DNA from: Roseofilum reptotaenium CS-1145
Lineage (GTDB): Bacteria; Cyanobacteriota; Cyanobacteriia; Cyanobacteriales; Desertifilaceae
DNA length: 64,000 nucleotides
NCBI RefSeq assembly: GCF_028330985.1
Contig: NZ_JAQMUE010000064.1
Coordinates: forward strand, 62,001 to 126,000
Direction: 5' to 3'
Within the stretch, counting starts at the first letter, position 1. Each line of letters begins with the position of its first letter. The notes beneath the pieces were generated by a model, which did not search any database, was not told where the DNA came from, and saw only the letters and a list, made by a program, of their open reading frames with translations. The translations under genes and the position numbers were made by a program. Positions 2,734 through 24,924 of this stretch are shown piece by piece.

Positions 2734-5700
2734 ATGAATCTACAAGATGAAGCCAATTCAGTAGATGATCTAGGTATAGCCATTATTGCCCTGTCCGGTC
2801 GTTTTCCAAAAGCTCAAGACCTCAATCAATTTTGGCAGAATCTTAAGGATGGTGTTGAATCTATTTCTTTTTTCTCAGATCAAGAATTACTAAAGTCTGG
2901 TATTAAAGCTGAATTACTCGACGATCCTAACTATGTAAAAGCTCGTGCTATGATGTCAGACATCGATATGTTTGATGCTAATTTCTTTAGCTACAGTCGC
3001 AAGGAAGCTGAATACATAGACCCGCAACAGCGTTTGTTTCTTGAATGTGCTTGGGAAACGATAGAAAGGGGAGGTTACAATCCAGAGACCTATGAAGGTT
3101 TAATTGGAGTTTATGCTGGTCTTGGCATGAACCACTACTTATTAAAGAATCTTTATCCAAACCACGATTCTAATAATCCATCAAACTCTTATCAGTTAAT
3201 GATTAACAGTGATAAGGATTTCCTGGCCACTCGTGTCGCTTACAAGCTAAATTTAAGAGGCCCTGCAATCAACGTTCAAACAGCTTGCTCAACTTCATTG
3301 GTTGCAGTCCACATGGCTTGTCAAAGCTTGCTCAATGGGGAATGCGATCTCGCTCTTGCTGGTGGTGTCTCTATCCAGGTTCCGCAGAAAGCTGGACATT
3401 TATATCGAGAGGGGATGATCTTCTCTCCTGATGGGCACTGTCGAACATTTGATGCGAAAGCCAAAGGTACAATACCCGGTGATGGTGTGGGCATTATACT
3501 TCTCAAGCGCCTTAATGAGGCGATCGCCGACGGAGATTCTATCCAGGCCATAATCAAAGGATCGTCAATTAATAACGATGGCTCCTTAAAAGTCGGCTAC
3601 ACCGCACCTAGCATAGAAGGTCAAGCAGCAGTTATTTCAGAGGCTCATGCTGTTGCTGGAGTAGATCCAGAAACCATCTCATACATAGAAGCTCATGGCA
3701 CAGGGACAGAGCTGGGAGATCCAGTAGAAATTGCAGCTCTGAGCCAGGCTTTTAGGTATAGTACAGACAAGAAAGGTTTCTGTGCCATTGGTTCCCTAAA
3801 AAGCAATATGGGTCATTTAGATGCAGCCGCAGGAGTAGCCGGACTGATCAAAACCGTTTTAGCTCTCAAACACAAATTGCTACCACAAACGCTACATTTT
3901 GAACAACCCAACCCTAAAATAGATTTTGCGAATAGTCCACTCTATGTTAATACCACTCTTTCTGAGTGGAAAACCAATGGAACTCCTCGTAGAGCAGGGG
4001 TTAGTTCCTTTGGTATTGGAGGAACTAACGCTCATGTAATCTTGGAAGAAGCTCCAGAACCAATTAAGAAAGAAAATTCCCCAGAACGTCCGGTTCATTG
4101 TTTAACCCTCTCAGCCAAAACTCCAGAAGCACTAGAACAACTGGTAGCCCGTTATCAAAACACTATAGAAACTCATCAAGAATTAGAAATTGCAGACATT
4201 TGCTATACTGCAAATACAGGACGTAAACACTTCAATCATCGTCTAGCTACTATTGCAGCAACCGAGCAAGAATTACTAGAAAAAATCAAATCTTACCAAC
4301 GAAAAGAACACGGAATAGAAGGATTTTATGGAGAGTTACCCAATAGTAAGATCATAAAAATTGCATTTCTATTTACAGGTCAAGGTTCCCAATATATCAA
4401 CATGGGAAGGCAACTCTATGAAAAAGCACCGACTTTCCGTCAAGCTTTAGAGCAATGTGACCAAATTCTTCAACCCTATTTGGAGACATCCATATTAGAA
4501 ATTATTTACCCCAAAGATGCACAAAAATCAAGTCTTTTAGACCAAACAGCTTATACCCAACCTGCCCTATTTGCTTTGGAATACGCCCTCTTCAAGTTAT
4601 GGGATTCATGGGGAATCAAACCCAATGGTGTCATGGGTCACAGCGTCGGGGAATATGTAGCAGCTTGTATTGCCGGAGTATTCAGCCTAGAAGACGGTCT
4701 CAAACTAATAGCCATGCGGGGACAGTTAATGCAAAAGCTACCCTCTGGTGGTGAGATGGTATCTGTAATGGCATCAGAATCTCAGGTAAAAGAGGCCATA
4801 AAAGAATATACTTCTCAAGTGACAATAGCAGCAGTTAACGGACCAGAAAGTATAGTAATTTCTGGTGACAGTAGAGCTATAGCAACTATTTGTGATATCT
4901 TCAAAAATCTGGGAATTAAGACCAAACAGTTACAGGTGTCCCATGCCTTCCATTCGCCATTGATGGAACCAATGTTAACAGAATTTGAAACAGTGGCTAA
5001 AGAGATAACTTATAATGAACCCCAAATACCACTAATCTCAAATGTAACTGGGACTCAAGTAGGTGCAGAAATAACCACTGCTGAATATTGGGTAGCTCAT
5101 GTGCGTCAACCCGTAAGATTTGCTCAGAGTATGAAAACTCTGGAAGAGCAAGGATATGAAACCTTCCTGGAAATTGGACCCAAACCCATATTGTTAGGAA
5201 TGGGAAGACAATGTGTCAGAGAAAACATGGGAGAATGGTTGCCCTCATTGCGTCCGAATCAAATCCCCCTCCAGTCTTCCTTAGAAAGGGATAAATCAGA
5301 GGATGCTGCGCTTTTGAAAGATGAGTGGCAACAAATGCTATCAAGCTTAGGGCAATTATATGTGAAAGGAGTAACAATAGATTGGTCAGGGTTTGACTCA
5401 GACTATAGTCGTCAGAAAGTAGTATTACCTACCTATCCATTCCAATGGCAGCGTTATTGGGTGGAAACTCCTGACAATCAAGATCAGAAGACTACAAATC
5501 AAAGTTCAAATTTAGTTCTTAAACTGCTGAGACAAGGAGATACAGAAGGATTAACTCAAGAACTGAAGTTATCTGAAGAGTTAACAGAAGATGAACAAAC
5601 ATTATTACCTAAGTTGTTAGAGATTTTGACTGCCAGGTATCAAAAATCTCTGCAAAATCAGGATTATATAGTTGGTGACTTTTATGATGAGTTAACTTCT

Positions 5701-8508
5701 TATGTTCATGAACAGGCAATTTTGAACTATGTTCCTTTGCCGGGGGTTATTAGAGGATTTTCATGGATTCTATTATCCCATAAATCCAACACACAAGAAA
5801 GATACCAACAATTAGCATTAATAGCCCAGGAAGAGATTAGAAATATAGGTTGGCAGAAAGTTGACTTTTCTGCGTGTCAGAAAGTTCTAGATATCGGTTG
5901 TGGCCATGGTACAGATTTAATAACCCTAGGCCAGAAGTATGATCACTTAGAGCTTTGTGGCTATACAATATCAGATCGACAAGTAGAATTGGGAAATCAA
6001 AGAATTAATCAATTTGATCTGGAACAGCAGATAAAAATTATCAATGGAGATAGTTCTCAGGATGAGTTTCCCGATCATTACGATCTGATCTATGGATTTG
6101 AAGTCATTTGTCACATCAAAAAGAAAGAAGAACTATTTTGGAATATCCGAAATCACCTAAATAGTGAAGGTCATTTAGTCTTTGCAGATTTCATCTCCAA
6201 CGCCTCATTTAGTATCGATTATGATGCGCACTCATCCTATCTAATCACTCAACCAGAATGGTTGGATTTGCTGTCAAAAAACCATCTAAAGATAATACAG
6301 TATGTAGATATTAGTCACGAAATTGCCAATGGACTAGACGATGTAAATTTCACAGAGAATTTCAACTATATATGTAAAAGCAATAATTTAAACGAAAACG
6401 CCAGAATAGGGTTGCAATCCTATGACAACCTCTACAAGATGTTGCGTAAGCAGCTCGTCAGCTATGTAGTCATGACAGCCCAAAAACAAGACCAGTTATC
6501 AGTAGAGGAAATTTACCAGTGGAACCAAGAAATTCTACACAATCCCCTACATTACTCTGATGTCTCACTACAAAAACTGTTCTATACAGTAGAATGGCAA
6601 AAAGCCGGCCCTCGACAGCAGCAGAGAAAAACACTACAACCAGGAACTTGGATCATATTCAGCGATAGAGAGGGTGTCGGTGAAAAACTGCACAACCTTT
6701 TAGAGCAAAGAGGCGATCGCTCTTTCATGGTATTTATCGGGGAAACCTACCAGCACACAGAAACTGGAAGTTGGGAGCTAAACCCATCTCATCCAGAAGA
6801 CTTTAAGCGTTTTTGCCAAGATATAAAGGCAACTATTGGAGAAAGTCCAAGAATCATTCACTTATGGAGTCTGGACTCTACACCTTCTCAACACCTCACT
6901 CAGTCAGCTTTAGAGTCAGCACAAAAGTCGGGTTGTGGTAGTGTATTGCACCTCGTTCAAGCCATAGAAAAACATCTGAACTCGGACTCAGTCTCACCTA
7001 AATTATGGCTAATGACCAAAGGTTCCCAGTCTGTACTCCCTTCAGAAGCAGTAGAAATAGCTCAAACCCCCCTTTGGGGACTAGGAAAAGTCATATCTCT
7101 GGAACATCCTCAATTATGGGGAGGATTAATAGACTTAGAGCAGGAATCGTCCACAAATGAAGCAGAAAGACTCCTACAGCTACTAGAAGAAGAGCAAGAA
7201 GAAGATCAACTAGCCATTCGGAAGGCACAGATCTATGTAGCTCGTTTAGAAAGACAACTCTTAGCCGAATCTCAACCCGTATCCTTGAGTGAGGAAGGAA
7301 GTTATTTAATTACTGGGGGAACAGGAGCCTTAGGATTGAAGATAGCTCAATGGTTGGTAGATAAGGGATGTCAACATCTAGTATTAATCAGTCGCTCTGA
7401 ACCATCAGAAAAAGCACAACTGAGGATTGAGAGTTTACAGAAGCAAGGAGTAGAGGTGGTGGTAACTCAAGCCGATGTTTCTGTGGAACTAGAGATGGAG
7501 AAAGCCTTTAAGCAAATACAAGAAAGCCTACCCCCTCTCAAAGGAGTCATTCATGCCGCAGGAGTGATCGGATCGGAGCTAATTCAGGAGTTAGAATGGT
7601 CAGAACTCGAAGCTATTCTACGTCCTAAAGTAGTAGGAGGATGGGTGCTACATCAATTAACTCAGAAGCTAGAGCTAGAGTTTTTTGTGAATTTCTCTTC
7701 TATTGCATCAGTATGGGGTTCTAAAGGTCAAGCGCACTATGCAGCAGCCAACCATTTTCTGGATGGATTAACGGCTTATCGGCAATCGATGGGATTAGCA
7801 ACCTATAGTATAAATTGGGGGCCTTGGTCAGGAGGTGGAATGGCAACAGGGGAAGCGATGGACTGGTTAAAGCAAACGGGAGTCAGACCTCTAGAGCCAG
7901 AAAAAGCGATCGCGGCTTTGGAGAAGGTATTAGCCAGCAATAATGCTCAAACCGTAGTTGCAGATATCAATTGGGATTTATTTAAGGAACTCTATGAGCT
8001 AGGAGGGAAAGGAGTATTTCTGTCGGAAATTTCACTAGCTTCAGAAGCAACAGAGGTCAAAAACGCGAGCGCAGAATTTTTAGGAGAACTAGCATTAGTT
8101 CCAGAAAAGAAACGCTACCAGCGGATGGTTGATTACCTTCAAATTAAAATTGGTGAATTACTAAGATTTTCTCCATCCCAACTTCCCAATACACAATCAG
8201 GATTCTTTGATATGGGTATGGATTCATTGATGGCAGTTGAGCTGAGAAGTATTTTGAGTCATAGTCTGGGTAGTTCAATTAGTGCCGCCACATTGTTTGA
8301 GGCTTCCAATATTCAAAACCTGGCTAAATACCTAATCGATGAGCTGCTCCCAGATGAGCAAAACACAGAAATAGAGAGCGGTGAGAAGAAAAAGATACAG
8401 CATCCCAACATAGTTGAGTCTCAAGAAACTCAATCAGAAACAGAAATTGAGGACACAATAGCACAAGAGTTAAAGGAGATTTTTACTATTCTAGATGAAG
8501 GGAACTAA
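2734..8508 (+). CDS. Type I PKS A: KS-AT-MT-KR-ACP
   Basis: Modular polyketide synthase of 1924 residues that elongates the NRPS-bound chain by one malonate unit. KS (about 10-430) has Cys185 in TACSTSL, His321 in HGTGT and His361; the second Thr-Ser variant is common in KS domains that follow NRPS modules. AT (about 540-850) has active Ser637 (GHSVGE) and HAFH at 737-740, the malonyl-CoA signature. A methyltransferase lies at about 970-1250 (VLDIGCGHG at 1051); it differs from the usual PKS C-methyltransferase (LEIGAGTGG) seen in the next gene and may be an O-methyltransferase. KR (about 1500-1700) keeps Ser1656, Tyr1669 and Asn1673; Trp1661 eight residues before Tyr and absence of an LDD motif suggest an A-type KR. 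No DH or ER is present. ACP Ser1831 follows (DSL). The acidic C-terminal helix looks like a cyanobacterial docking element. GAGGAG about 10 nt upstream supports the ATG. Confidence 0.95.
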   Translation: MNLQDEANSVDDLGIAIIALSGRFPKAQDLNQFWQNLKDGVESISFFSDQELLKSGIKAELLDDPNYVKARAMMSDIDMFDANFFSYSRKEAEYIDPQQRLFLECAWETIERGGYNPETYEGLIGVYAGLGMNHYLLKNLYPNHDSNNPSNSYQLMINSDKDFLATRVAYKLNLRGPAINVQTACSTSLVAVHMACQSLLNGECDLALAGGVSIQVPQKAGHLYREGMIFSPDGHCRTFDAKAKGTIPGDGVGIILLKRLNEAIADGDSIQAIIKGSSINNDGSLKVGYTAPSIEGQAAVISEAHAVAGVDPETISYIEAHGTGTELGDPVEIAALSQAFRYSTDKKGFCAIGSLKSNMGHLDAAAGVAGLIKTVLALKHKLLPQTLHFEQPNPKIDFANSPLYVNTTLSEWKTNGTPRRAGVSSFGIGGTNAHVILEEAPEPIKKENSPERPVHCLTLSAKTPEALEQLVARYQNTIETHQELEIADICYTANTGRKHFNHRLATIAATEQELLEKIKSYQRKEHGIEGFYGELPNSKIIKIAFLFTGQGSQYINMGRQLYEKAPTFRQALEQCDQILQPYLETSILEIIYPKDAQKSSLLDQTAYTQPALFALEYALFKLWDSWGIKPNGVMGHSVGEYVAACIAGVFSLEDGLKLIAMRGQLMQKLPSGGEMVSVMASESQVKEAIKEYTSQVTIAAVNGPESIVISGDSRAIATICDIFKNLGIKTKQLQVSHAFHSPLMEPMLTEFETVAKEITYNEPQIPLISNVTGTQVGAEITTAEYWVAHVRQPVRFAQSMKTLEEQGYETFLEIGPKPILLGMGRQCVRENMGEWLPSLRPNQIPLQSSLERDKSEDAALLKDEWQQMLSSLGQLYVKGVTIDWSGFDSDYSRQKVVLPTYPFQWQRYWVETPDNQDQKTTNQSSNLVLKLLRQGDTEGLTQELKLSEELTEDEQTLLPKLLEILTARYQKSLQNQDYIVGDFYDELTSYVHEQAILNYVPLPGVIRGFSWILLSHKSNTQERYQQLALIAQEEIRNIGWQKVDFSACQKVLDIGCGHGTDLITLGQKYDHLELCGYTISDRQVELGNQRINQFDLEQQIKIINGDSSQDEFPDHYDLIYGFEVICHIKKKEELFWNIRNHLNSEGHLVFADFISNASFSIDYDAHSSYLITQPEWLDLLSKNHLKIIQYVDISHEIANGLDDVNFTENFNYICKSNNLNENARIGLQSYDNLYKMLRKQLVSYVVMTAQKQDQLSVEEIYQWNQEILHNPLHYSDVSLQKLFYTVEWQKAGPRQQQRKTLQPGTWIIFSDREGVGEKLHNLLEQRGDRSFMVFIGETYQHTETGSWELNPSHPEDFKRFCQDIKATIGESPRIIHLWSLDSTPSQHLTQSALESAQKSGCGSVLHLVQAIEKHLNSDSVSPKLWLMTKGSQSVLPSEAVEIAQTPLWGLGKVISLEHPQLWGGLIDLEQESSTNEAERLLQLLEEEQEEDQLAIRKAQIYVARLERQLLAESQPVSLSEEGSYLITGGTGALGLKIAQWLVDKGCQHLVLISRSEPSEKAQLRIESLQKQGVEVVVTQADVSVELEMEKAFKQIQESLPPLKGVIHAAGVIGSELIQELEWSELEAILRPKVVGGWVLHQLTQKLELEFFVNFSSIASVWGSKGQAHYAAANHFLDGLTAYRQSMGLATYSINWGPWSGGGMATGEAMDWLKQTGVRPLEPEKAIAALEKVLASNNAQTVVADINWDLFKELYELGGKGVFLSEISLASEATEVKNASAEFLGELALVPEKKRYQRMVDYLQIKIGELLRFSPSQLPNTQSGFFDMGMDSLMAVELRSILSHSLGSSISAATLFEASNIQNLAKYLIDELLPDEQNTEIESGEKKKIQHPNIVESQETQSETEIEDTIAQELKEIFTILDEGN

Positions 8509-8513
8509 CTAAA

Positions 8514-11500
8514 ATGAACAAAATTTCTCAAACAACTGAACAAAAGTTCTCATCTAAACAAGTCCTCAAAGCCCTCCAAGAAATGCGGAGTAGGCTCGAT
8601 GCTGTAAACAAAGCCCAAACCGAACCGATTGCAATTGTTGGGATGGCCTGTCGATTTCCTGGAGGAGCTAACGACCCATCAACATACTTGAACGTATTGC
8701 ATAATGGTATAGATGCCATTACACCAGTCCCTCCTGAGCGTTGGGATGTGAATACTTATTACGATTCCGACCCCGAAGTTTCAGGGAAAGCCTATACTAA
8801 GGAAGGTGGGTTTATTGAGCAAGTAGACCAATTTGACCCCTTATTTTTTGGCATTGCTCCTAAAGAGGCAATTATTTTAGATCCTCAATACAGACTACTC
8901 TTAGAAGTAACGTGGGAAGCATTAGAAAATGCTGGACAAACATGGGAAAACCTTAAGGATAGCCAAACCAGTGTGTTCATGGGAATCTCTACAGATGACT
9001 ATTCTGCTGTAAGTCTAATGAACCAAAATCAAATTGGCAATAATATAAGTGTTGGCAATAATAGAAGTGTTGGTGTAGGTCGTATTTCTCATCTCTTGGG
9101 TTTGCAGGGGGCTAATATACAGGTCGATACAGCTTGTTCAAGTTCTTTAGTTGCTACCCATCTGGCTTGTCAGAACTTACGTTCAGGAGAATCTAACTTA
9201 GCCTTAGTCGGTGGAGTTAATTTAATCTTATCACCCATTAGTACCATTGGGCGTTGCCAACTGAAAGCCCTATCTCCAGATGGTCGTTGCAAAACTTTTG
9301 ATGCTGCTGCAAATGGTTATGGTCAAGGAGAAGGATGTGGTGTCCTAGTTTTAAAACGTTTGTCCGATGCTATTTCTGATGGAGACTCCATCTTAGCCCT
9401 TATTCGAGGTTCTGCTGTTAATCACGATGGGCCAAGTAGTGGTATGACAGTTCCCAATAAAATGGCTCAGAAAAAGGTAATTCAACAAGCATTGGCAAAT
9501 GCAAAGTTAGAACCTCATCAAATTAGCTATTTGGAGGCTCACGGTACAGGAACGTCTTTAGGAGACCCCATTGAAATAGAAGCTCTGGCAGAAGTATACT
9601 GTAAAAACCGTCCAGCAGATCGGCCTTTAATTGTGGGATCGGTAAAAACTAATATTGGTCATCTAGAAGCAGCAGCCGGTGTCTCCTCTTTGATGAAGGT
9701 GATTTTAGCGCTTCAACATCAGGAAATTCCTCCTCATCTACATTTTCAAAAACCTAACCCTTATGTAGATTGGGATCGATTACCCATCAAAATTCCAACT
9801 TCATTAATGCCTTGGTCTTGCGAGGGAAAACCAAGACTAGCAGGAGTTAGTTCTTTTGGTATGGGTGGAACCAATGCTCATGTAATTATAGAAGAAGCAC
9901 CTTCTCAAGTCAAAACTCAAAATGTTATTGAACGTCCAATTCATCTATTAACTCTCTCAGCTAAAACAGAAAAGGCTCTAGATGATTTAGTCAATAGCTA
10001 TCAAAGTTATCTAGAAACTAATCCTGATGTAGTACTAGCAGATGTATGTTATACCGCCTCTACAGGCAGAGCGCATTTTAATTATCGACTAGGGGTTATT
10101 GCTTCTGAGCTGACGGAATTAAGAGTGAAATTGCTGGGGTGGAAAACTCAGAAACAATTAGTAGGAGTATTTTCAGGACAACCCAATAGTGAAGAACCCA
10201 AAATAGCATTCCTATTTACAGGTCAAGGTTCCCAGTATGTGAATATGGGAAGGCAACTATACGAACAAGCACCGACTTTCCGTCAAGCTTTAGAGGAATG
10301 CGATCGAATTTTACAACCGTATCTAGAAGTCCCTCTATTAGACATTATCTACCCTAAAGAAACGAAACCATCAAGTTCTGATCTATTAGACCAAACCGCT
10401 TATACCCAACCCACTCTATTTGCCATAGAATACGCCCTCTGCAAATTATGGGAATCATGGGGAGTCCAACCCGATGTAGTTATGGGTCATAGTGTAGGAG
10501 AATATGTAGCAGCAACAGTAGCAGGAGCATTTAGCCTAGAAGATGGTCTCAAACTAATAGCCATGAGAGGGAAACTGATGCAACAGTTGCCATCTGGTGG
10601 CCAGATGGTATCAGTAATGGCATCAGAATCTCAGGTAACAGAAGCCATACAAGCAGATAATTCCCAAGTAACAATAGCAGCAGTTAACGGGCCAGAAAGT
10701 ACAGTCATTTCAGGTGAGAGTGCAGCTATAGCTAAGATTTGTAGTGTCTTTGAAGGAGTTGGAATCAAGACAAAGCAACTACAAGTCTCCCATGCTTTCC
10801 ATTCCCCATTGATGGAACCGATGTTAACAGAATTTGAAGCAGTAGCGAAAGAAATCAGCTATAACCCACCCAAAATACCACTGATATCAAACGTAACGGG
10901 TACTGAAGTAGGAACAGAAATAACCACGGCTCAGTATTGGGTAGCTCATGTGCGTCAACCGGTAAGATTTGCCCAAAGTATGAAAACGCTAGAAGAGCAA
11001 GGATATGAAGCGTTTCTGGAAATCGGCCCTAAACCCATATTGTTAGGAATGGGAAGGCAATGTGTAACAGAAGATGTAGGAGAATGGTTACCCTCATTGC
11101 GTCCAGGAGTAGATGAATGGCAACAAATGCTATCAAGTCTAGGACAATTGTATGTCAAAGGAGTAAAAATAGATTGGTCAGGATTTGACTCAGACTATAG
11201 TCGTCAGAAAGTAGCCTTACCCACCTATCCATTCCAACGAGAAAGATGTTGGATAGAAACCAACCATAACGTCAACTTCTGGTCTAAACAACAATTGTCA
11301 ACAGACCAAAACTTCCATCCACTATTAGGTCAGAAGCTAAATTGTGCAAGCGAACAACACATATTTTCCTCACAAATAGGAGAAAATTCACCCAATTACC
11401 TGAGCCACCACCGAATATTTAATCAAGCAGTGTTTCCTGCAACAGGCTACCTAGAAATAGCAAGAGCAGCAGGAAGTTACCAATTAAAAAAATCGCATAT

Positions 11501-14500
11501 AATAATAGAAGACTTAACTATCAGTAAAGGGTGGATACTACCAGCAGGAGAATTGATAAATGCCCAAACCATCCTCACCCCATTAGAAAATAAAAGCTAC
11601 CAATTCCAAATATTTTCTCAACAAAAAAACCAAGAGGAACAGAACTGGATACTCCATGCCACAGGAAAAATCCGAACTGCACAAACCGATATAACTCCAA
11701 CCCAAGTCGATCTAGAAAAATACAAAGCAGAGTGTAGTCAACCCATAGAAGTAAAACAACATTATCAACAATCTCGGCAATTCGGGCTTGATTATGGTAG
11801 CAGTTTCCAAGGCATCTGCGAGTTATGGTCTGGTAAAAATAAAGCCTTGGCTCAGATTAAGTTACCTGAAGAATTGATAGCAGAAACAATAGACTATCAC
11901 TTCCATCCCGCATTATTAGATGCAGCGTTGCAGTTAATCGGTCATATATGGCCAGAAGTAGACAGCGATAAAACGTATCTGACAGTAGGGTTAGAGCAGT
12001 TCAAAGTGTATAGTCGTCCAGGGCTTTCTCTTTGGGCTTACGCATCCGCGATCGCGACTGGAGTAGAAGGTCAAGAAAATGTAACCACTCAAGTGACACT
12101 ACTGAGTCCAGAAGGAGCAATCATTGCTACAGTCAAAGGCTTACAGATAAAAGTGGCCAGTAAACAGACTTTACTGGGAACAGAAGGAGAATCAATAACC
12201 AATTGCTTGTATGAAGTCGAATGGAGAACCAAAGGTCTTTTAGGCAGGTTGTTACCTCCTGACTTTTTGCTTGCTCCCGTAGAAGTTTCTGAAAAATCAA
12301 CTCCCAGCCTACAAGAATTAGTCACCCAGATAGATAATACGTCTACCTCAGAAATACAAAGGAAGGTAGACGCATTAAGTGTAGATTATATCGTGCAAGC
12401 CTTGCTATCAATGGGTTGGTCATATAAACCAACAGAGAGCTTCGAGTTAGAGGCAGCAGTCCAACGTTTAGGTATCGTTCCGAGTCAGCGACAGTTATTC
12501 GGGCGTTTGCTACAAATCCTAGCAGAAGTAGGAATACTCCAGCCGAATCAACAACAGTGGGAGGTGCAACAAACCTTAGAGAGAGTTGACCCGACCCAAA
12601 AAAGCCAAAGTTTCCTGAATCAATATCCAGAAGAAGTAGCTGGATTAACCCTATTAGACCGTTGTGCCTCTCAACTAGCAGTTGTGCTACGAGGAGCAAT
12701 AGATCCGGTAGAACTGGTGTTTCCTAAAGGAGATTTGACCACAGCCACCCAATTCTATCAAGACTCACAAGTAACCAAAGTGATGAACGTGATAGTGCAA
12801 AAAACTATCACTCAAGCCATTGAGAAGTTACCACCGAGCCGAGGTATACGGTTATTGGAAATCGGAGCGGGAACAGGAGGGACTACCCGTTATATTTTGC
12901 CCCATCTCAACCCTAACCAAACGGAATATATATTCACGGATATTGGAGCTTTATTCACCACTAAAGCTCAAGAGCAATTCAAGGATTATCGATTCATCAG
13001 CTATCAAACTTTAGATATTGAGGTAGACCCAACCAGCCAAGGATTTACACCTCATCAGTATGATGTCATTATTGCGGCTAATGTCCTTCATGCTACCACC
13101 AATATGAAGCAGACCTTATCCCATGTGCGACAACTGTTAGCACCAGGGGGAATGTTGGTCTTGTATGAAACAACAACACGATCTCGGTTTTCAGATTTAA
13201 TCTTTGGGCTATTAGAAGGATGGTGGAAGTTCACTGATTATGACTTACGATCTGACTACCCTCTATTGAGTCGCCAGCAGTGGAAAAAAGTTTTGAGTGA
13301 AACCGGTTTTACTCAAGTTGTGACTCTACCGGAAGTTGAGAATATGGCAGAAGTATTTGCTCAACAAGGGGTCATTGTCGCCCAAGCAGCTCCAATTACC
13401 TTAGAGTCAACATCATTGACACCGAAGGGCTGGTTGATATTAGCAGACCAAAAAGGAATTGCTCAACAGGTGGCTAGTCAACTCCACGAAGCAGGAGAGG
13501 TTTGTACGTTAGTATTTGCAGGAGAGAATTACCAACAGCTTGCCCCGGAAGAATTTATTATTAATCCTCATAATCCAGAAGAATTTGAGCAACTGATAGA
13601 AGCGGTTGCGACCCAATCCCCCTCGTTATCGGGAGTCGTACAATGTTGGACAACTGAAGCAGGGGTCGATAAAAATCTGAGCGCTGAGGAATTAGAAAAT
13701 TTATCGAAGCTTGGGTGTGGTACGACCTTATCTTTGGTACAAGCCTTAGTCAAAGTCAAATTATCTCGATCGCCTCGGTTATGGTTAGTGACCAATGGTT
13801 CTCAACCCGTACCGTTAAATAATCCAGTCATACCAGGAGTAGCCCAATCTTCACTGTGGGGCATGGGGAAAGTGATTCGCTTAGAATATCCCGATCTAAA
13901 GTGTGTGTGCATAGATTTAGACCCACAGCAGACGATAGAAACTCAAGCTGAGGCACTATTCCAGGAAATCTGGTCGGAGGATAGGGAAGACCAGGTAGCA
14001 TGGCGCGCAGGTGAGCGTTATGTGCCTCGATTGGTGGCTAGTCGTCGTCAGCAAGCTGATGCTACGACTCAAAAGCCTTTATGTTTCCATGAGGATGCTA
14101 CCTATTTGATTACAGAAGGCATGGGAGATTTAGGTTTATTGGTGGCTCGTTGGATGGTAGATAAAGGAGCCAAGCATTTGGTGTTGTTCGGATGCGGTTC
14201 ACTAGATGATACTAACCGTCAAAAAATAACTGAGTTAGAAAGGGCTGGAGTTTCTGTAGTACTGGAACAAGCCGATGTATCGGATCTCGAATCAATGAGC
14301 AGAGTGCTGCACAAAATTGAGCAGTCAAACAGACCACTAACAGGAGTAATCCATTCGGCTGAACTGTTGTCGGATGAAGTTCTACAACACCAGAGTGGAT
14401 CTAGCTTTGAGCAAGTAATGGCATCCCAAGTCAAAGGTGCTTGGCATTTGCATCAATTGACTCAAAACCAACAGTTGGACTTTTTTATATTGTTTTCTTC

Positions 14501-15308
14501 CGTTGCATCTCTGTTGGGTTCACCCGGTCAAGGAAATCATGCTGTAGCCAGTGGATTTCTTGATGGTTTAGCCCATTATCGCCATGCGATGGGATTACCA
14601 GGATTAAGCATTCATTGGGGTTCTTTTTCTCAAGTGGAAGAGGTTGCAGAACCCGGTTTGGAGGTCAATCTACAGAAGCAGGGAATGGGGGTGATATCTC
14701 CAACTCAGGTGCTAGAGTCGCTAGAGCTACTGATGAGTGGTTCGGAGATAGAAGTAGGAGTGCTACCGATTCAGTGGTCAGCTTGGCAGGCAAGAGTCGC
14801 CCAATGGCCTTTTTTGGCAGATTGGCAAGCAACCAACCCAACAACTTCTGAAATATCTCAGTCAGAGTTTCTGTTAAAGTTGAAGGCAACAGCACCTAAC
14901 GAACGTCGCTCGTTATTAGTCGCTCATGTCCGCCGTCAATTTGCTCTAGTTTTAGGGATCAATCATCCTGAATCTATTTCATTAGAGACTGGATTTTTTG
15001 ATTTAGGTATGGATTCTTTGACTTCTGTTGAATTAAGGAATAAGTTGCAGACCAGTTTAGAATGTTCACTGCCGTCTTCTCTAGCTTTTGATTATCCGAA
15101 TCTTCAGGCACTAACCGATCGCCTGGAAGAAACAATAATTCTATCATTAGATGAGGAGAAATCACCATCTGAAACACCATTAGATAAGGATTGTTTAGAG
15201 ATAGAATCTCCAGAAAATATGCTTACTGAAATCCATCAGCTTTCTGAAGAGGAAATTGATATGGCGGTTGACGAAGCGATTGGGGAACTCGATCAACTTT
15301 TACAGTAA
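8514..15308 (+). CDS. Type I PKS B: KS-AT-DH-CMT-KR(inactive)-ACP
   Basis: Second PKS module, 2264 residues, only 5 nt after the previous gene. An N-terminal helical docking segment (residues 10-35, LKALQEMRSRLDAV) precedes the KS (Cys208, His343, His383). AT has Ser660 (GHSVGE) and HAFH at 760-763, so malonyl-CoA. DH has His966 and Asp1136; the usual glycine of HxxxGxxxxP is Asn here. A typical C-methyltransferase lies at about 1390-1620 (LLEIGAGTGG from 1447), predicting alpha-methylation. The KR (about 1860-2060) looks dead: the cofactor motif begins TEG instead of TGG (Glu1868), the catalytic Tyr is His2009 (GQGNHAVAS) and the catalytic Asn is Ser2013, though Ser1996 remains. With no KR activity the DH would lack a substrate, so a beta-keto, alpha-methyl unit is the simplest prediction. 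ACP Ser2168 (GMDSL). The strongly acidic C-terminus (EEEIDMAVDEAIGELDQLLQ) fits a class 2 docking domain. Confidence 0.95.
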   Translation: MNKISQTTEQKFSSKQVLKALQEMRSRLDAVNKAQTEPIAIVGMACRFPGGANDPSTYLNVLHNGIDAITPVPPERWDVNTYYDSDPEVSGKAYTKEGGFIEQVDQFDPLFFGIAPKEAIILDPQYRLLLEVTWEALENAGQTWENLKDSQTSVFMGISTDDYSAVSLMNQNQIGNNISVGNNRSVGVGRISHLLGLQGANIQVDTACSSSLVATHLACQNLRSGESNLALVGGVNLILSPISTIGRCQLKALSPDGRCKTFDAAANGYGQGEGCGVLVLKRLSDAISDGDSILALIRGSAVNHDGPSSGMTVPNKMAQKKVIQQALANAKLEPHQISYLEAHGTGTSLGDPIEIEALAEVYCKNRPADRPLIVGSVKTNIGHLEAAAGVSSLMKVILALQHQEIPPHLHFQKPNPYVDWDRLPIKIPTSLMPWSCEGKPRLAGVSSFGMGGTNAHVIIEEAPSQVKTQNVIERPIHLLTLSAKTEKALDDLVNSYQSYLETNPDVVLADVCYTASTGRAHFNYRLGVIASELTELRVKLLGWKTQKQLVGVFSGQPNSEEPKIAFLFTGQGSQYVNMGRQLYEQAPTFRQALEECDRILQPYLEVPLLDIIYPKETKPSSSDLLDQTAYTQPTLFAIEYALCKLWESWGVQPDVVMGHSVGEYVAATVAGAFSLEDGLKLIAMRGKLMQQLPSGGQMVSVMASESQVTEAIQADNSQVTIAAVNGPESTVISGESAAIAKICSVFEGVGIKTKQLQVSHAFHSPLMEPMLTEFEAVAKEISYNPPKIPLISNVTGTEVGTEITTAQYWVAHVRQPVRFAQSMKTLEEQGYEAFLEIGPKPILLGMGRQCVTEDVGEWLPSLRPGVDEWQQMLSSLGQLYVKGVKIDWSGFDSDYSRQKVALPTYPFQRERCWIETNHNVNFWSKQQLSTDQNFHPLLGQKLNCASEQHIFSSQIGENSPNYLSHHRIFNQAVFPATGYLEIARAAGSYQLKKSHIIIEDLTISKGWILPAGELINAQTILTPLENKSYQFQIFSQQKNQEEQNWILHATGKIRTAQTDITPTQVDLEKYKAECSQPIEVKQHYQQSRQFGLDYGSSFQGICELWSGKNKALAQIKLPEELIAETIDYHFHPALLDAALQLIGHIWPEVDSDKTYLTVGLEQFKVYSRPGLSLWAYASAIATGVEGQENVTTQVTLLSPEGAIIATVKGLQIKVASKQTLLGTEGESITNCLYEVEWRTKGLLGRLLPPDFLLAPVEVSEKSTPSLQELVTQIDNTSTSEIQRKVDALSVDYIVQALLSMGWSYKPTESFELEAAVQRLGIVPSQRQLFGRLLQILAEVGILQPNQQQWEVQQTLERVDPTQKSQSFLNQYPEEVAGLTLLDRCASQLAVVLRGAIDPVELVFPKGDLTTATQFYQDSQVTKVMNVIVQKTITQAIEKLPPSRGIRLLEIGAGTGGTTRYILPHLNPNQTEYIFTDIGALFTTKAQEQFKDYRFISYQTLDIEVDPTSQGFTPHQYDVIIAANVLHATTNMKQTLSHVRQLLAPGGMLVLYETTTRSRFSDLIFGLLEGWWKFTDYDLRSDYPLLSRQQWKKVLSETGFTQVVTLPEVENMAEVFAQQGVIVAQAAPITLESTSLTPKGWLILADQKGIAQQVASQLHEAGEVCTLVFAGENYQQLAPEEFIINPHNPEEFEQLIEAVATQSPSLSGVVQCWTTEAGVDKNLSAEELENLSKLGCGTTLSLVQALVKVKLSRSPRLWLVTNGSQPVPLNNPVIPGVAQSSLWGMGKVIRLEYPDLKCVCIDLDPQQTIETQAEALFQEIWSEDREDQVAWRAGERYVPRLVASRRQQADATTQKPLCFHEDATYLITEGMGDLGLLVARWMVDKGAKHLVLFGCGSLDDTNRQKITELERAGVSVVLEQADVSDLESMSRVLHKIEQSNRPLTGVIHSAELLSDEVLQHQSGSSFEQVMASQVKGAWHLHQLTQNQQLDFFILFSSVASLLGSPGQGNHAVASGFLDGLAHYRHAMGLPGLSIHWGSFSQVEEVAEPGLEVNLQKQGMGVISPTQVLESLELLMSGSEIEVGVLPIQWSAWQARVAQWPFLADWQATNPTTSEISQSEFLLKLKATAPNERRSLLVAHVRRQFALVLGINHPESISLETGFFDLGMDSLTSVELRNKLQTSLECSLPSSLAFDYPNLQALTDRLEETIILSLDEEKSPSETPLDKDCLEIESPENMLTEIHQLSEEEIDMAVDEAIGELDQLLQ

Positions 15309-15357: not shown

Positions 15358-18300
15358 ATGGAACTTAACGCATCCCAAAAGCTCTCAAATGAGCAACGTC
15401 TACTGCTAAAACTTAAACAAGCAACTGCAAAAATACAAGAAATTAGAGCAGCCGCTACAGAGCCAATAGCCATTATTGGTATGAGTTGTCGGTTCCCTGG
15501 AGGTGCATCTACTCCAGAAGGCTTCTGGGATATTTTACAAAATGGAGTAGATGCGATCGCTGAAGTCCCAAAAGACCGATGGGATCTTGATAATTATTAC
15601 AACCCAGACCCAGACACTCCTGGCAAAATGCACAGTCCCTATGGAGGGTTTATTGACCAAGTAAAGGAGTTTGATGCCAATTTTTTTGGTATCTCTCCTA
15701 AAGAAACCATTCATTTAGATCCTCAACATAGATTACTCTTAGAAGTCAGTTGGGAAGCTCTAGAGCATTCAGGAAAGAATCCGCAACAACTTAAAGGGAG
15801 TCAAACCGGTGTATTTGTTGGTATTTGTAGCAGTGATTATAGCCACCGTATATTGAGTCACGGTCTAGAACAAATTGATGCTTACATAAGTTCGGGTAAT
15901 TCTCACAGTACAGCATCAGGGCGAATTTCTTATATGCTGGGGCTAGTTGGGCCTAACTTAGTCGTAGACACAGCTTGCTCCTCTTCATTAGTTAGTATCC
16001 ATTTAGCTTGTTCGAGTTTAAGGAATCAAGAGTGCAATCTAGCTCTAGCAGGAGGGGTGAATCTATTACTATCTCCAGAGGTTAGCATCGCCCTGTCTCA
16101 GGGTCGTATGCTATCGGTGGATGGTCGGTGCAAGACCTTTGATGCTTCAGCAAATGGTTATGTGCGTGGAGATGGATGTGGGATTATTGTATTAAAGCGC
16201 CTCAGTGATGCAGTGGCCAATCGAGATAATGTTCTGGCAGTAATTCGTGGAACGGCTATGAATCAAGACGGACCGAGTAGTGGCTTGACAGTACCTAATG
16301 GTCCGTCTCAAGTTGCTGTTATCCGTCAAGCTTTGGCCAATGGAGGAGTAGACCCAGCAGAGGTTAGTTATATTGAAGCTCATGGTACAGGAACTTCCTT
16401 GGGAGACCCTATGGAAGTGGAAGCTCTAGGATCGGTATTTGGCAAAACCCACTCTCAAGAGCACCCTTTAATCCTGGGTTCAGCTAAAACGAATATTGGT
16501 CATACTGAAGGAGCAGCAGGAGTTGCAGGCTTGATAAAATTAGTTCTACAACTGCAACATCAACAAATCGCACCATCCCTACATTTTAATCAACCGAATC
16601 CTTATATTAATTGGTCTCAGTTACCCGTAAAAGTCTCAACTCAACTCACTCCTTGGCAAACCAATGGAAAAACTCGTATAGCAGGAGTGAGTTCCTTTGG
16701 TTTTAGTGGGACGAATGCTCATATAATATTAGAAGAAGCACCAAGAGAAGATAATTGGCAACTGGCAACTGGCAACAGTGAAGATGATTTAGAACGGGCA
16801 GCTCATCTATTAACTCTCTCCGCCAAAACTGAAACTGCTCTTAGTGATTTAGTCAATAATTATCAAAATTATATAACTATTTATCCGGAATTAGAGGTGG
16901 CTGATATCTGCTATACCGCTAATATAGGTCGTGCCCACTTCCACCACAGACTAGCAATCCTTGCAGACAACCAATCAGAATTAGTGGAGAAACTCCGACA
17001 GTACAAAAAACGAGAAGAAGTCCCCGGAATTTACTCAGGAGAACTGATCAATAACACCACGATCCCCCAAATCGCGTTCCTCTTCACAGGACAAGGTTCT
17101 CAATATGTGAATATGGGAAGACAGTTGTATCAAACAGCCCTCCCTTTTCGTGAAGCAATTCACCAATGTGAAGACATTCTGAGTCGTGTCGAAATTTTCC
17201 AGGACACTTCATTACGAGATATTCTCTATCCAGAAAGCATAGATGAGTCGAATGCATCCCGACTAAACCAAACAGCCTATACCCAGCCGGCTTTGTTTGC
17301 TATAGAATATGCTTTGTATCAACTGTGGCAATCCTGGGGAATTAAACCAGATGTCGTCATGGGTCATAGTGTGGGTGAATATGTAGCAGCAACGGTAGCG
17401 AGAGTATTTAGTTTAGAGGATGGTTTGAAATTAATTGCTGCCCGGGGAAGGTTAATGCAAAAATTACCAACTGGCGGGGAGATGGTTTCAGTAATGGCAT
17501 CAGAGTCGGTGGTGAAAGCGGCGATCGCTGCCCATCCAGAACTATCGATAGCAGCTATCAACGGACCAGAAAGTATAGTTATTTCGGGTAACTCTATGGC
17601 CATCAAAGCCATGGTCAACAGCCTGGAATCAGCCGGCATCAAAACCAAACAACTGCAAGTCTCCCATGCCTTCCATTCATCATTGATGGAACCGATGTTG
17701 GCAGAATTTGAAGCGATCGCCAATCAACTGACCTACCATCAACCCACAATACCAGTAATCTCTAACCTTACAGGAACCAAGGCAGACAACGCGATTGCCT
17801 CCGCACAATATTGGGTGAGTCACGTGCGCCAACCTGTAAGGTTTGCTCAAGGAATGAAGGAGTTAAACCAGCAAGGCTGTACAACTTTCCTAGAAATTGG
17901 CCCCAAACCCATTTTGTTGGGAATGGGAAGACAATGTTTACCAGAAGAGGTAGGTGTGTGGTTACCATCGTTGCGTCCTGGAGTGGATGAATGGCAACAG
18001 ATGCTTTCAAGTTTAGGACAGTTGTATGTACAGGGAGCTAAAGTAGATTGGTTAGGATTTGACCAAAACTATAACCGGGAGAAAGTAGTTTTGCCGACCT
18101 ATCCATTCCAAAGAGAAAAATACTGGATAGAAATCAACAATAGCTACCAACAAAAACTGCATTTATCAACAACACAATATTTGCACCCATTACTAGGAGA
18201 AAAGCTAGAACTAGCGGGAATAGAAGATCAACATCGTTTTCAATCCGACCTAGGCGCTCAATCTCCAGACTACTTGAATCACCACCAAGTCTTTGATCAG

Positions 18301-21300
18301 GCTCTATTTCCGGGTACAGGCTATCTAGAAATGGCAATGGCAGTGGGAAAAAATCTCTTCAGCTCCCAAGAACAAGTCGTCGTTTCTGATGTGGCGATCG
18401 CGCAAGGGTTGATCCTACCAGGAACAGAACTTAAGAAGGTACAGACAGTCGTCAGTCTTTTAGACAATAATAGTTACAAGTTTGAAATATTTAGCGCATC
18501 AGAAGCTGGGAATCAACAGGTGCGACAATGGAAATTGCACAGTGAAGGAAAAATATATCCCCAGCCCATTGCTAAAAGCCGAGCTAAAATTGACCTCGAA
18601 CAATACAAAAGAGACTGTAGTCAAGCAATAGAAGTCCAAAAACATTATCAACTCTGTGGGTCAACCGGTTTAAAGCACGGAAGAAGTTTCCAAGGACTCA
18701 AACAGTTGTGGAAAGGTGAAGGCAAAGCCCTCGCGGAAATAGCCTTGCCGGAGGAGTTAATAGGAGAGGTAACAAACTATCATATACATCCAGCCTTATT
18801 AGATGTAGCGATACAAATCACGGGTCATGCTCTGGGCAACATAGAAACAGGCGATAAAACCTATCTACCAGTAGGGGTAGAGAAATTGAAGCTGTATCGT
18901 CAGGCAATAAGTCAAGCATGGGCGATCGCCGAAATACCAGAAAACAGCTTAACAGCCGATATTTTCCTCGTAGATAATCAGGGAACTGTGGTAGCCGAGC
19001 TGGAGGGATTAAGGATAATGGTTACAACAACCGATACCCTCCTCAAAAGTCTGCAACCAGATATCAGCCATTGGTATTATCAAATCCACTGGCAAGCCCA
19101 AGCCCTATCCTCAACGCACCCATCAACAGCAAGCAGCAAATGGTTAGTCTTGACAGAAGAGACTCAACTACTAGAAGCACTCCAACACAAAGGTCACGAG
19201 TGCATTAAAGTCTCACCAGGACAGACCTATAAGCAGCTAAGTCTACAACACTATCAAATCAATCCCACCAGCGAGGAGCAATTTCAGCAACTGCTAGAGG
19301 AAAATCCAGGGATTACAGGCGTTGTACATTTGTGGGGAATGCAGCCATCAGCAAACAAAGATAACTTAGAATTAGAGAAAATCCAAGAAAATAGCTGTGC
19401 GGCAGCGCTGCATTTAGTACAAGCAATCCTCAAGAGCAAAGACGGAACCATACCACAGCTATGGTTAGTAACTCAAGGAACCCAGAGCGTCAAAACAGAC
19501 TCCGAAGTTATTAACCCTGAGTATGGAAGTTTATGGGGACTAGGAGGAGTAATTGCTCAAGAACACTTAGAGTTTAGGTGTAAACGCTTCGACTGTGATC
19601 CAGAAGCAAGTATTAATGAAAACTTAGATTTCCTAGTCGATGAACTCCTATCAGAAGATGTAGAAGAGCAAATAGCAATACGTCAGGGAAGTCGCTATGT
19701 CGCCAGACTCGAACAAAAACCACAGCAACAATCCATGAGTTCGCCAGGGCAACCGGTGCAATTAAAACTAGCAGAATACGGAGTGATAGACAACCTCAGT
19801 TGGCAGCCAATGCAGCGTCGTCTTCCTGAAGCCAATGAAGTCGAAATTGAGGTAGCGGCAGTAGGACTAAACTTCCGAGACGTGCTTAATGCCCTCGGAT
19901 TACTCCAAGATTACTATGCCGAACACCTGGGCATTACCAGTTCCAAACAACTCACCTTTGGCTTGGAATGTACAGGAATAATCTCTGCTGTCGGAGCAGA
20001 AGTCTCACAATGGCAAGTAGGAGACGAAGTAATTACAAATATGGTTCACGATGGCTTCAGCAGCTTCACCATTACCCTAGCTGAATATCTCATCCCCAAG
20101 CCGAAACCCATGAGTTTCAGCGAAGCAGCCACCTTACCAGTAACATTTTCTACGGCTTACTACGCATTAGAGAAGTTAGCCAAAATTCAACCTGGAGAAC
20201 GAGTATTAATTCATGCAGCAGCAGGAGGCGTAGGGCAAGCCGCAGTACAAATAGCTCAACGGGCAGGAGCCGAAATTTTTGCCACAGCTAGTCCGCCCAA
20301 ATGGGAGTTTCTCAAGTCCCTAGGCATCAAACATATTATGAACTCCCGCACCCTAGATTTTGCTGACCAAGTTATGGAGCTTACTGGAGGAGGGGGAGTA
20401 GATATAGTCCTCAATAGCCTCAACGGAGAGTACATTCCCAAGAATTTAGAAATATTAGCTCCTCAAGGAAGATTTGTGGAAATTGGAAAAATTGGGATTT
20501 GGGGGGAACAGCAAGTCAAAGAAAAACGACCAGATATCAGCTATTTCCCCTTTGATTTAGGAGAAGTATTCCAACAACAACCCAAAGTAGTCACTCAGTT
20601 GTCAGAGGAAGTAATCCACAGATCGAACCAAGGAGAACTTGTTGCCCTACCTCACAAGGTATTTGCCAGCACACAAATTACAGAAGCCTTCCGGTATATG
20701 CAACAAGCTAAGAACATCGGCAAGGTAGTTGTGGAGATGCCACAAGTTTCTATCGAGCCAAAGTCCATCCAATCAGAAGCAAGTTATTTGATTACAGGAG
20801 GATTAGGAGCCTTAGGATTGGAAGTAGCCCAATGGTTGGTAAAACAGGGGGCCAAGCATCTAGTCTTGAGCAGCCGTCGCGCTCCCAGTGAAACAGCACA
20901 ACAAATCATAGGCAACTTACAAACAGATGGAGCTTCTGTGGATATCTTATTAGGGAATATTTCCCGTCAAGAAGATGTCGCCAAAACTTTAGAGGCAATA
21001 TCAACATCATTCCCCCCACTCAAAGGAGTGATTCATGCCGCTGGAGTATTGGATGATGGGGTACTTCAACAGATGAGTTGGGAACGGTTTACCACAGTAA
21101 TGGCACCCAAGGTTCAAGGAACTTGGCATTTGCATCAATTCACCAAAGATTTACCCTTAGATTTCTTTGTCTGCTTTTCCTCTGTAGCTTCGATTTTGGG
21201 GGGGCCTGGCCAAGGAAATTATGCTGCGGCCAATTCTTTTATGGATGCATTAGCTCACTATCGTCGAGGTCTAGGATTACCAGGGTTGAGTATCAACTGG

Positions 21301-23280: not shown

Positions 23281-24765
23281 TTAAGGTAAATTAGTCGATC
23301 CCATTAGGTAGCGATCGCACTCTCGTGCTGCACCGCGACCCTCATTAATCGCCCAAACCACCAAACTTTGACCGCGACGACAATCCCCTGCCGCAAAAAC
23401 ACCGGGGATACTGGTCACAAAATCACCATGATCGGCTTTCACATTACTGCGGCTGTCCCGTTCCAAACCCAGAGCATCTAATAGAGGTTGTTCCGGCCCC
23501 AAAAATCCCATGGCTAACAGCACCAGTTGTGCGGGTACAACCTTCTCTGTGCCTTCAATGGGTTGGGGAATAAAGCGCCCTTGCTCATTTTTCGTCCATT
23601 CCACCTGTACCGTATGCACTGCCTTCACCTGGCCTTGCTCATCCCCCTCAAATCGGGTCGCCGTGGTGGTATAAACGCGCGGATCGTCTCCAAACACCGC
23701 CGCCGCCTCTTCTTGACCGTAGTCCATGCGGTAAATTTTCGGCCACTCCGGCCAGGGATTATTGGCAGCTCGGCTCTCTGGCGGTTTAGGCATAATTTCC
23801 AACTGCGTGACGCTCTTGCAGCCATGGCGCATCGAAGTGCCCACACAGTCCGTCCCCGTATCGCCACCACCGATAATAATCACATCCTTACCGGCTGCGG
23901 AAATATAATCCTCTGTGGGATTTCCATCGAGTACTGTGCGCGTATTGCCGGTTAAAAATTCCATGGCAAAATGAATGCCCTTGAGATCCCGCCCTTCAAT
24001 TTCTAAATTGCGCGGTTTCGTCGCTCCTGTACACAGAACCACTGCATCAAAGTCATTGAGCAGGTTTTCTACTGGCAGATCCTTACCAATTTCCATATTG
24101 CAAACAAACGTCACCCCTTCTGCTTGCAAAACATCCAACCGGCGTAAAACCACCTCTTTCTTATCCAGCTTCATATTGGGGATACCATACATCAGTAGTC
24201 CCCCAGGACGGTCTTCCCGTTCGTAGACCGTTACCCAATGACCCGCGTGGTTGAGTTGGGATGCTGCGGCTAAACCAGCCGGCCCGGAACCGACAACAGC
24301 CACTTTTTTCCCGGTTCGTTGCGGAGGTAATGTGGGTGTGATCCAGCCTTCATCCCAGCCTTTTTCAGCAATGGAATATTCAATATTCTTAATCGTTACT
24401 GGAGGGTTGGTAATGCCCAAAACACAGGCCCCTTCACAAGGTGCGGGGCAAACCCGGCCAGTGAATTCAGGGAAATTATTCGTCTTGTGCAGGCGATCGA
24501 GGGCTTCTTGCCATAATCCCCGATAGACCAAATCATTCCATTCTGGAATCAAGTTATTAATCGGACAACCACTTGCCATGCGGCTAATTTCTAATCCCGT
24601 ATGGCAAAAGGGTGTGCCACAGTCCATACATCGAGCGCCCTGGGTTTGCAGGCGATCGTCCTCCATATGCAGATGGAATTCATCCCAATTTTCTATACGT
24701 TTCTGGGGCGATACCTCTTCTGCGACTTCGCGCAGGTACTCCATAAAACCCGTTGCTTTTCCCAT
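23281..24765 (-). CDS. gltD: Glutamate synthase, small (beta) subunit
   Basis: Flavoprotein subunit of NADPH-GOGAT: it oxidises NADPH and passes electrons through FAD and Fe-S clusters to the large subunit, which makes two glutamates from glutamine and 2-oxoglutarate. At 494 residues it is close to the usual family length. The N-terminal Fe-S region has Cys46, Cys49, Cys54 (CMDCGTPFC), Cys67 and Cys106/110/114 (CPAPCEGAC). The FAD Rossmann motif [13 protein letters not shown] lies at about 155-167, and the NADPH motif [11 protein letters not shown] at about 296-306. It lies 159 nt downstream of gltB on the same strand, so co-transcription is likely. A gltD next to gltB argues for the NADPH-dependent rather than the ferredoxin-dependent enzyme. 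It is convergent with the PKS operon. Confidence 0.96.
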
Positions 24766-24862
24766 AATCGATCCCTCTCTCTACTGATAAATACAAAACA
24801 CGCTTCAATAGGGTTGGGGGAGTGGGGAGTAGGAATTTACTTCCGTGTTTGGAGTGTTGCCA

Positions 24863-24886
24863 CTCCCTTCGACTCCGCTCAGGGAG
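24863..24886. repeat. Short inverted repeat in the gltB-gltD spacer
   Basis: CTCCCT and AGGGAG arms enclose TCGACTCCGCTC. From memory, CCCTTCGACTCCGCTCAGGG is a widespread interspersed cyanobacterial repeat. Its place between two genes of one operon suggests a neutral repeat or an mRNA-processing hairpin rather than a terminator. Confidence 0.5.
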
Positions 24887-24924
24887 CTACTGCGTCCCCG
24901 CGTCCCCGTGTCTGGAATCTCCCC

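Follow-up and report, generated by a model that had tools for sequence, protein, structure and literature searches.

A likely redox-inactive ketoreductase of the malyngamide kind in a Roseofilum reptotaenium polyketide synthase, with relatives that commonly carry histidine at the catalytic tyrosine position

Within a 64,000-nucleotide stretch of the Roseofilum reptotaenium CS-1145 genome (hereafter the window; G000:C64:62001-126000, where G000 is the genome of the window), we evaluated the ketoreductase (KR) of a polyketide synthase (PKS), here called PKS B, that forms the penultimate module of a biosynthetic cluster. Its frame (8514-15308, plus strand, 2264 residues) is open and encodes ketosynthase (KS), acyltransferase (AT), dehydratase (DH), C-methyltransferase (cMT), KR, and acyl carrier protein (ACP) domains in that order. 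Judged from its residues, the KR is very probably inactive, and we consider it likely that it is a redox-inactive KR (KR0) of the malyngamide kind, with the ketone kept for ring closure and the DH left unused. The lesions that would best explain this are two Gly-to-Glu changes and an Arg-to-Cys change in the cofactor site, together with a Lys-to-Gln change at the catalytic lysine, and not the Tyr-to-His substitution emphasized by a preliminary description of this DNA.

The catalytic subdomain predicted to be inactive (PF08659, residues 1862-2038, 14097..14627, plus strand) matches the Pfam KR model at 202.6 bits across that whole span and is therefore full length, and the frame is open over all 2264 residues, as the preliminary description had held. 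Motifs in the frame include TYLITEGMGDLG, LVLFGCGSL, GVIHSAELLS, and MASQVKGAWHLH, and reading the codons, all on the plus strand, confirmed the three substitutions that had been described: Glu1868 (GAA, 14115..14117) replaces the first Gly of the cofactor motif, such that TGGxGxxG becomes TEGMGDLG; His2009 (CAT, 14538..14540) stands at the catalytic Tyr position; and Ser2013 (AGT, 14550..14552) stands at the catalytic Asn position. Three further lesions, which the preliminary description had not listed, accompany these, namely Cys1894 at the NADPH arginine position (14193..14195; GRR to GCG), Glu1950 in place of the Gly of the AAG motif (14361..14363; HSAG or HAAG to HSAE), and Gln1972 in place of the catalytic Lys (14427..14429). 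The glycine-rich NADPH motif and the NADPH arginine of active KRs are both absent from this domain (TEGMGDLG, GCG), and Ser1996 alone remains of the KR tetrad, with Lys, Tyr, and Asn gone. The remaining five KRs of the cluster all read K-S-Y-N; two of them belong to PKS A and PKS C, and three to the PKSs that lie farther upstream. An ortholog on a UBA2566 contig (G005), 93% identical over a 931-aa query, shares Glu1868, Cys1894, Glu1950, and Ser2013 with the window but retains Lys at 1972 and has Gln at 2009. With four of the lesions present in this second assembly as well, errors of base calling are an unlikely cause; at two positions of the tetrad (1972 and 2009), the window and this close ortholog differ. 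Structure predictions for the KR from nine sequences reached a mean predicted local distance difference test score (pLDDT) of 58 and were set aside, a PDB sequence search with the KR matched KR structures, and a contig scan found no relatives among viral contigs.

To place the histidine, we compared 96 KRs, all taken from loci around matches to the window's cMT-KR or from the same clusters, a sample that is biased toward relatives of the window. His was the commonest state at the Tyr position in C-methyltransferase modules (32 of 45 KRs; Tyr 8, Gln 2, Ala 2, Asp 1), whereas Tyr occupied it in all nine KRs of O-methyltransferase-type modules and in 39 of the 42 KRs without a detected methyltransferase, the other three being on truncated frames. 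Most His-KRs (26 of 33) were intact at Lys, Asn, the glycine motif, and the arginine; seven, including that of the window, failed at least one of these four checks, two Okeania rows among them solely by a Gly-to-Ala change. The same checks were passed by 53 of 56 Tyr-KRs, with one failing solely by the strict motif rule. Full C-methylating modules that also hold an enoylreductase (ER) carried His in all four cases. Counting against a special role for His are the eight cMT-module KRs with Tyr and an ER-KR on a truncated contig (L125) that carries Tyr and whose methyltransferase state is not visible. On the tree, the link between C-methyltransferases and non-Tyr KRs was not significant beyond shared descent (on average 3.5 independent pairs agreeing and none opposite, median p 0.125, with six rows omitted whose upstream parts are cut off).

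Tyrosine loss in such modules extends beyond His. In a PKS that we take, from its domain order, to be of the microcystin type (L130-L132; G127 and G320), the KR of the DH-cMT-KR module reads K-S-A-N in both genomes, and the microcystin product is reduced at the position of that module. The Asn-to-Ser change taken alone is unsafe as a lethal lesion, given a McyG-like KR (G127) that reads KSYS. On balance, these sequence patterns favor the view that cyanobacterial cMT-module KRs commonly reduce alpha-methyl-beta-ketoacyl chains without the Tyr of short-chain dehydrogenases/reductases, having His, or Ala in the microcystin type, in its place and keeping Lys, Ser, Asn, and the cofactor site. A 2017 review states that all reductase-active KRs have a Tyr, Ser, Lys, and Asn tetrad (PMC5331325), and a literature search on His or Tyr loss in KRs found nothing matching in the partial texts it returned, which is no proof of absence from print. 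If our view is correct, an entire family would be an exception to that tetrad rule, and scoring its members as dead because they lack Tyr would be a mistake. The apparently active His-KRs are thus a novel and unexpected lead that makes Tyr-less ketoreductase chemistry directly testable, and since Tyr-to-His is common in cMT-coupled KRs, calls of KR activity should rest on the cofactor site and the Lys.

Evaluating this against a product structure was possible with a second cluster of the same genome. Contig G000:C111 (L068-L070, 8420-36699) encodes six PKS modules followed by an adenylation-KR-peptidyl carrier protein (A-KR-PCP) module and another nonribosomal peptide synthetase (NRPS). Looekeyolides contain hydroxymethionine and then leucine or phenylalanine (PMC9967302, section 2.2, Table 1), and the module order appears as expected for them. 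Assuming that this contig makes looekeyolide, we mapped the product by a colinear reading of six extensions on a C4 starter, and for 6 of 6 modules the expected methylation matched the NMR table, which has C-methyl groups at C12, C8, and C4, O-methyl groups at C7 and C3, and no methyl at C10. Modules 1 and 2, with K-S-H-N and K-S-Y-N KRs, map to C13 (CH-O) and C11 (CH-OH); module 3, whose KR reads G-S-Q-D and has its cofactor site destroyed, falls on C9, a ketal carbon (102.0 ppm); and modules 4 (K-S-Y-N), 5 (K-S-H-N), and 6 (K-S-Y-N) map to C7, C5, and C3, all reduced. In this colinear mapping, then, the five KRs with an intact cofactor site go with reduced carbons and the sole broken KR with the unreduced ketal carbon. 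Both His-KRs, which lie in C-methylating modules 1 and 5 and are intact at the other checked residues, match reduced carbons.

It is because of this looekeyolide-type rule, that an intact cofactor site goes with a reduced carbon, that we would attribute the inactivity of the PKS B KR to its cofactor site and Lys. The module 3 KR of the looekeyolide-type cluster resembles it in belonging to a C-methylating module, in having both cofactor site and tetrad broken, and in corresponding to an unreduced carbon (C9), but it is more degenerate, its module lacks a DH, and it sits distantly on a long tree branch. The preliminary description had taken the Tyr-to-His change as what inactivates the KR, and here it does not hold: His is the commonest state in the cMT modules of the set and two His-KRs map to reduced looekeyolide carbons, and we have rejected it as a lethal lesion. 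Its broader claim, that reductase function was lost in an intact frame, is well supported. By the same evidence one could argue that the PKS B KR is still an active reductase with His as its proton donor, as seemingly in relatives, such that the DH would then give an alpha-methyl alkene. Looekeyolide modules 1 and 5 and the four C-methylating ER modules make His compatible with reduction, and the DH motifs are intact; unlike those relatives, however, the PKS B KR is also missing Lys and Asn of the tetrad, the AAG Gly, and, in the cofactor site, the first Gly and the NADPH Arg, and in G005 the Tyr is replaced by Gln, which leaves an active reductase very improbable.

Relatives of PKS B connect it to the malyngamides. 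Of 388 genomes of the order that were searched, 52 yielded matches with E values no higher than 1e-140, among them a close relative, 76% identical, on a contig of Okeania hirsuta PAB10Feb10-1 (L121/L102), which we take to be the strain of the published malyngamide pathway (Moss et al.). The 2018 abstract of Moss et al. reportedly describes an inactive penultimate KR as critical for formation of the six-membered ring. In a KR tree of 95 rows, which omits one row of the 96 KRs that lacks the motif, the window, G005, and O. hirsuta group together at support 100/85, as common descent would have it, with Moorena L099 (99/89), then L110 (100/93), and then L101 (97/87) joining outward; TEG is common to the window, G005, O. 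hirsuta, and L099, the first four rows. The O. hirsuta locus shares with the window the succession KS-AT-DH-cMT-KR-ACP and KS-AT-DH-ER-KR-ACP-reductase, the TEG cofactor motif, and the loss of the NADPH Arg, and its KR is the nearest tree row outside the window-G005 pair. PKS B shows the same cofactor-site loss as the O. hirsuta KR and, like its counterpart, is penultimate, directly before a DH-ER-KR-ACP-reductase module. The two differ in what else was lost: O. hirsuta retains Lys, Tyr, and Asn without the DH motif His, whereas the window lacks Lys, Tyr, and Asn and retains the DH His.

The O. hirsuta KR, which reads TEGISSLG and GNCSP, has lost its cofactor site and kept K-S-Y-N. The rows that surround its Tyr in the tree carry other residues, in most cases His, and a single base separates its TAT codon from CAT, which encodes His in L099 and L101. 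The best reading of this Tyr is therefore that it replaced an earlier His in a domain lacking a cofactor site. The same K-S-Y-N without a cofactor site resembles the C2 pattern, and it is conceivable that the PKS B KR is a reductase-dead epimerase of the alpha-methyl, like the module 3 KRs of the erythromycin and pikromycin synthases (DEBS/PIKS), which are also full length and belong to modules that leave a ketone next to a methyl branch. Methylmalonate supplies that methyl in those synthases, and in PKS B the cMT would add it. A position directly behind the C-methyltransferase, a full-length domain, and continued constraint would all suit an epimerase. Such epimerization, however, depends on an active-site Tyr and Ser (PMC5331325), and in PKS B the Ser is present and the Tyr absent, being His in the window and Gln in G005; G001 and G004, moreover, lack both cMT and KR. 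We regard an epimerase as unlikely. Two other KRs in the set are also damaged: that of a Moorena DH-cMT-KR module (L100:8032-15615, G046), K-S-H-N with its glycine motif destroyed and the NADPH Arg missing, is probably a further dead KR, and that of a C-methylating module in G086 (L115:13279-19455) is badly damaged (K-S-D-N, broken glycine motif).

Two genomes of the same genus (G001 and G004) hold a penultimate module without a KR at the same cluster place. Its AT, DH, and ACP blocks are 58-82% identical to PKS B. For the KS, identity is about 45% across most of the domain, the DH motif His is Tyr, and the cMT and KR are absent. From the KS-AT linker onward the module aligns well with PKS B save for an in-frame gap at residues about 1211-2080, with a short remnant resembling the KR C-terminus still present; this is best read as a joint in-frame deletion of cMT and KR. 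The relatives thereby show stages of loss, from intact His-KR through loss of the cofactor site and a drifting tetrad to absence of the domain. The order may have begun with an ancestral cMT-coupled KR that had His at the Tyr position; the KR0 clade would then have lost its cofactor site, after which the tetrad drifted (position 2009 being His, Gln, Tyr, or Asn), and finally the sister genomes would have deleted cMT and KR.

For the PKS B chemistry, our preferred reading remains a KR0 that leaves a ketone. Without productive NADPH binding the KR would not reduce the beta-ketone, the C-methyltransferase would methylate the alpha carbon to give a beta-keto-alpha-methyl unit, and the DH would be unused because there would be no beta-hydroxyl for it to act on. 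PKS C would then add a fully reduced C2 unit, and its terminal reductase would release an aldehyde, onto which the carbon on the far side of the ketone, activated by it, could close by an aldol reaction. A hand count of the ring atoms (alpha carbon, ketone, methyl-bearing carbon, two methylenes, and aldehyde carbon) gives a six-membered, methyl-bearing ring that could be likened, by analogy, to the cyclohexanone head of type A malyngamides; perhaps survival of the ketone for this closure is the purpose of the dead KR. The beta-keto-alpha-methyl unit thus stands as the best reading, although the chief argument that the preliminary description gave for it, the Tyr-to-His change, falls away. The KR0 kind itself is already known; this one adds a malyngamide-like pathway with a dead reductase.

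The surrounding modules are consistent with such a pathway. The modules of the cluster are arranged in the genome as KS-AT-oMT-KR-ACP, KS-AT-KR-ACP, KS-AT-DH-ER-KR-ACP, and an NRPS with an N-methyltransferase; next come PKS A (KS-AT-oMT-KR-ACP) and PKS B, and then PKS C, which reads KS-AT-DH-ER-KR-ACP-thioester reductase. The O-methyltransferase (oMT) label is our own assignment for PKS A, made by analogy because its methyltransferase type differs from that of PKS B and its looekeyolide-type relatives sit at O-methyl positions; the C-methylating label of the PKS B methyltransferase is taken from its relatives, which occupy C-methyl positions in looekeyolide. By domain order, the first three modules show the succession KS-AT-oMT-KR, KS-AT-KR, KS-AT-DH-ER-KR of a lyngbic-acid assembly. 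Lyngbic acid is the 7-methoxytetradec-4-enoyl tail of malyngamides, and we infer the fit of these modules to it from the structure described in PMC10180397. Clusters annotated as malyngamides and looekeyolides were present in all nine Roseofilum genomes examined in a published survey (PMC9967302, section 2.5).

Where the two pathways part is in the beta-branch (vinyl chloride) of the malyngamide pathway, which goes with a cassette of HMG-CoA synthase and enoyl-CoA hydratase (ECH). In O. hirsuta an ECH is fused before the KS of the module that corresponds to PKS B, and the neighbors of that module are another ECH, an HMG-CoA synthase, and a phytanoyl-dioxygenase-like (PhyH-like) protein with an ACP. 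In their place the window has the N-methylating NRPS and the O-methylating PKS A, the latter probably leaving an O-methyl group where the beta-branch would be. With the G001 and O. hirsuta proteins as phmmer queries, HMG-CoA synthase and ECH were located beside the KR-less module in L060 (G001) and L064 (G004), and also in L121, whereas at E 1e-3 neither the window nor G000:C64:30001-65000 nor L066-L067 of G005 gave any match. A relative of the O. hirsuta PhyH-like protein was likewise absent from the two 20-kb stretches of G001 and G004 that were searched.

The DH (11316..12173, plus strand) bears on the same question. Its His motif, of the HxxxGxxxxP-like kind (HHRIFNQAVFP), and its Asp motif (HPALLDAALQ) are both present in the window and in G005, and the motifs are intact in the Moorena relative L099 and in L101 as well, whereas the motif His is Tyr in G001 and G004 (L060, L064) and in O. 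hirsuta PAB (L102/L121). That three relatives have let the DH go is in line with an unused DH, so the idle DH proposed in the preliminary description gains some support from these losses and loses some to the intact window motifs and to a DH omega in the window-G005 comparison (0.240) equal to that of PKS C (0.237). Perhaps the DH has another job, for example as an isomerase or double-hotdog cyclase, while the dead KR leaves it a keto substrate; the motifs kept in the window, G005, L099, and L101 and the similar omega would suit this, but G001, G004, and O. hirsuta PAB have all lost that His, which suggests that the pathway type does not need the DH, and we judge such a role quite unlikely.

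Selection between the window and G005 speaks less clearly. Omega for the PKS B KR was 0.335 (bootstrap 0.17-0.73), above both the pooled KS, AT, cMT, KR structural part, and ACP of PKS B (0.134; Fisher p 0.025) and the KR of PKS C (0.068; p 0.013), and this contrast is weak support for the death of the KR. For His-KRs versus Tyr-KRs, no difference in constraint was readable from omega of other pairs, which is noisy, with very low synonymous divergence (dS) in several domains. dS also varies strongly among domains between window 8514-15308 and G005 C79:65057-71875 (AT 0.073, DH 0.353), which hints at domain-wise recombination or gene conversion.

Several observations weigh against a dead KR that serves ring closure beside an unused DH. 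Omega of the PKS B KR fell below 1 in 99.4% of 500 bootstraps, and constraint thus remains, which would fit a structural role of the KR between cMT and ACP. The DH of PKS B also lies above the pooled domains (p 0.0026), which weakens the KR contrast, and intact KRs in other pairs reach 0.378 (a Tyr-KR) and 0.450 (a His-KR, L113-L114), at very low dS. Intact DH motifs in the window are unexpected for a long-idle DH. Given that the window lacks the HMG-CoA synthase and ECH of O. hirsuta, G001, and G004, ring closure is proposed by analogy, and both the inactivity of the KR and the ketone are predictions from the genes. One might go further and suppose that the whole cluster is decaying and makes nothing, in which case a degenerate KR would carry no meaning; with the cluster frames in the window open, other domains scoring well against Pfam, and other domains of PKS B and PKS C at omega 0.07-0.24 between the window and G005, this is hardly credible.

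The remaining features of the cluster in the window lie on the plus strand. Within PKS B, Pfam matches place the KS at 8622..9893 (residues 37-460), the AT at 10209..11165 (residues 566-884), the C-methyltransferase at 12297..13343 (HTH_51 and Methyltransf_12), the KR structural subdomain at 13434..13925 (PF21394, residues 1641-1804), and the ACP at 14928..15125 (residues 2139-2204). The NRPS at 1..2667 is the end of an A-(N-methyltransferase)-PCP module that starts upstream of the window and is followed by PKS A at 2734..8508 (KS-AT-MT-KR-ACP, the methyltransferase being O-type by analogy) and, after PKS B, by PKS C, the last module, at 15358..23067; the KRs of both PKS A and PKS C are intact (KSYN). 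Frames immediately upstream of the cluster resemble housekeeping genes by eye, with no loading gene identified among them. After the cluster, genes with glutamate synthase domains lie on the minus strand, both in the window (23281-29541) and at L028:3167-12293.
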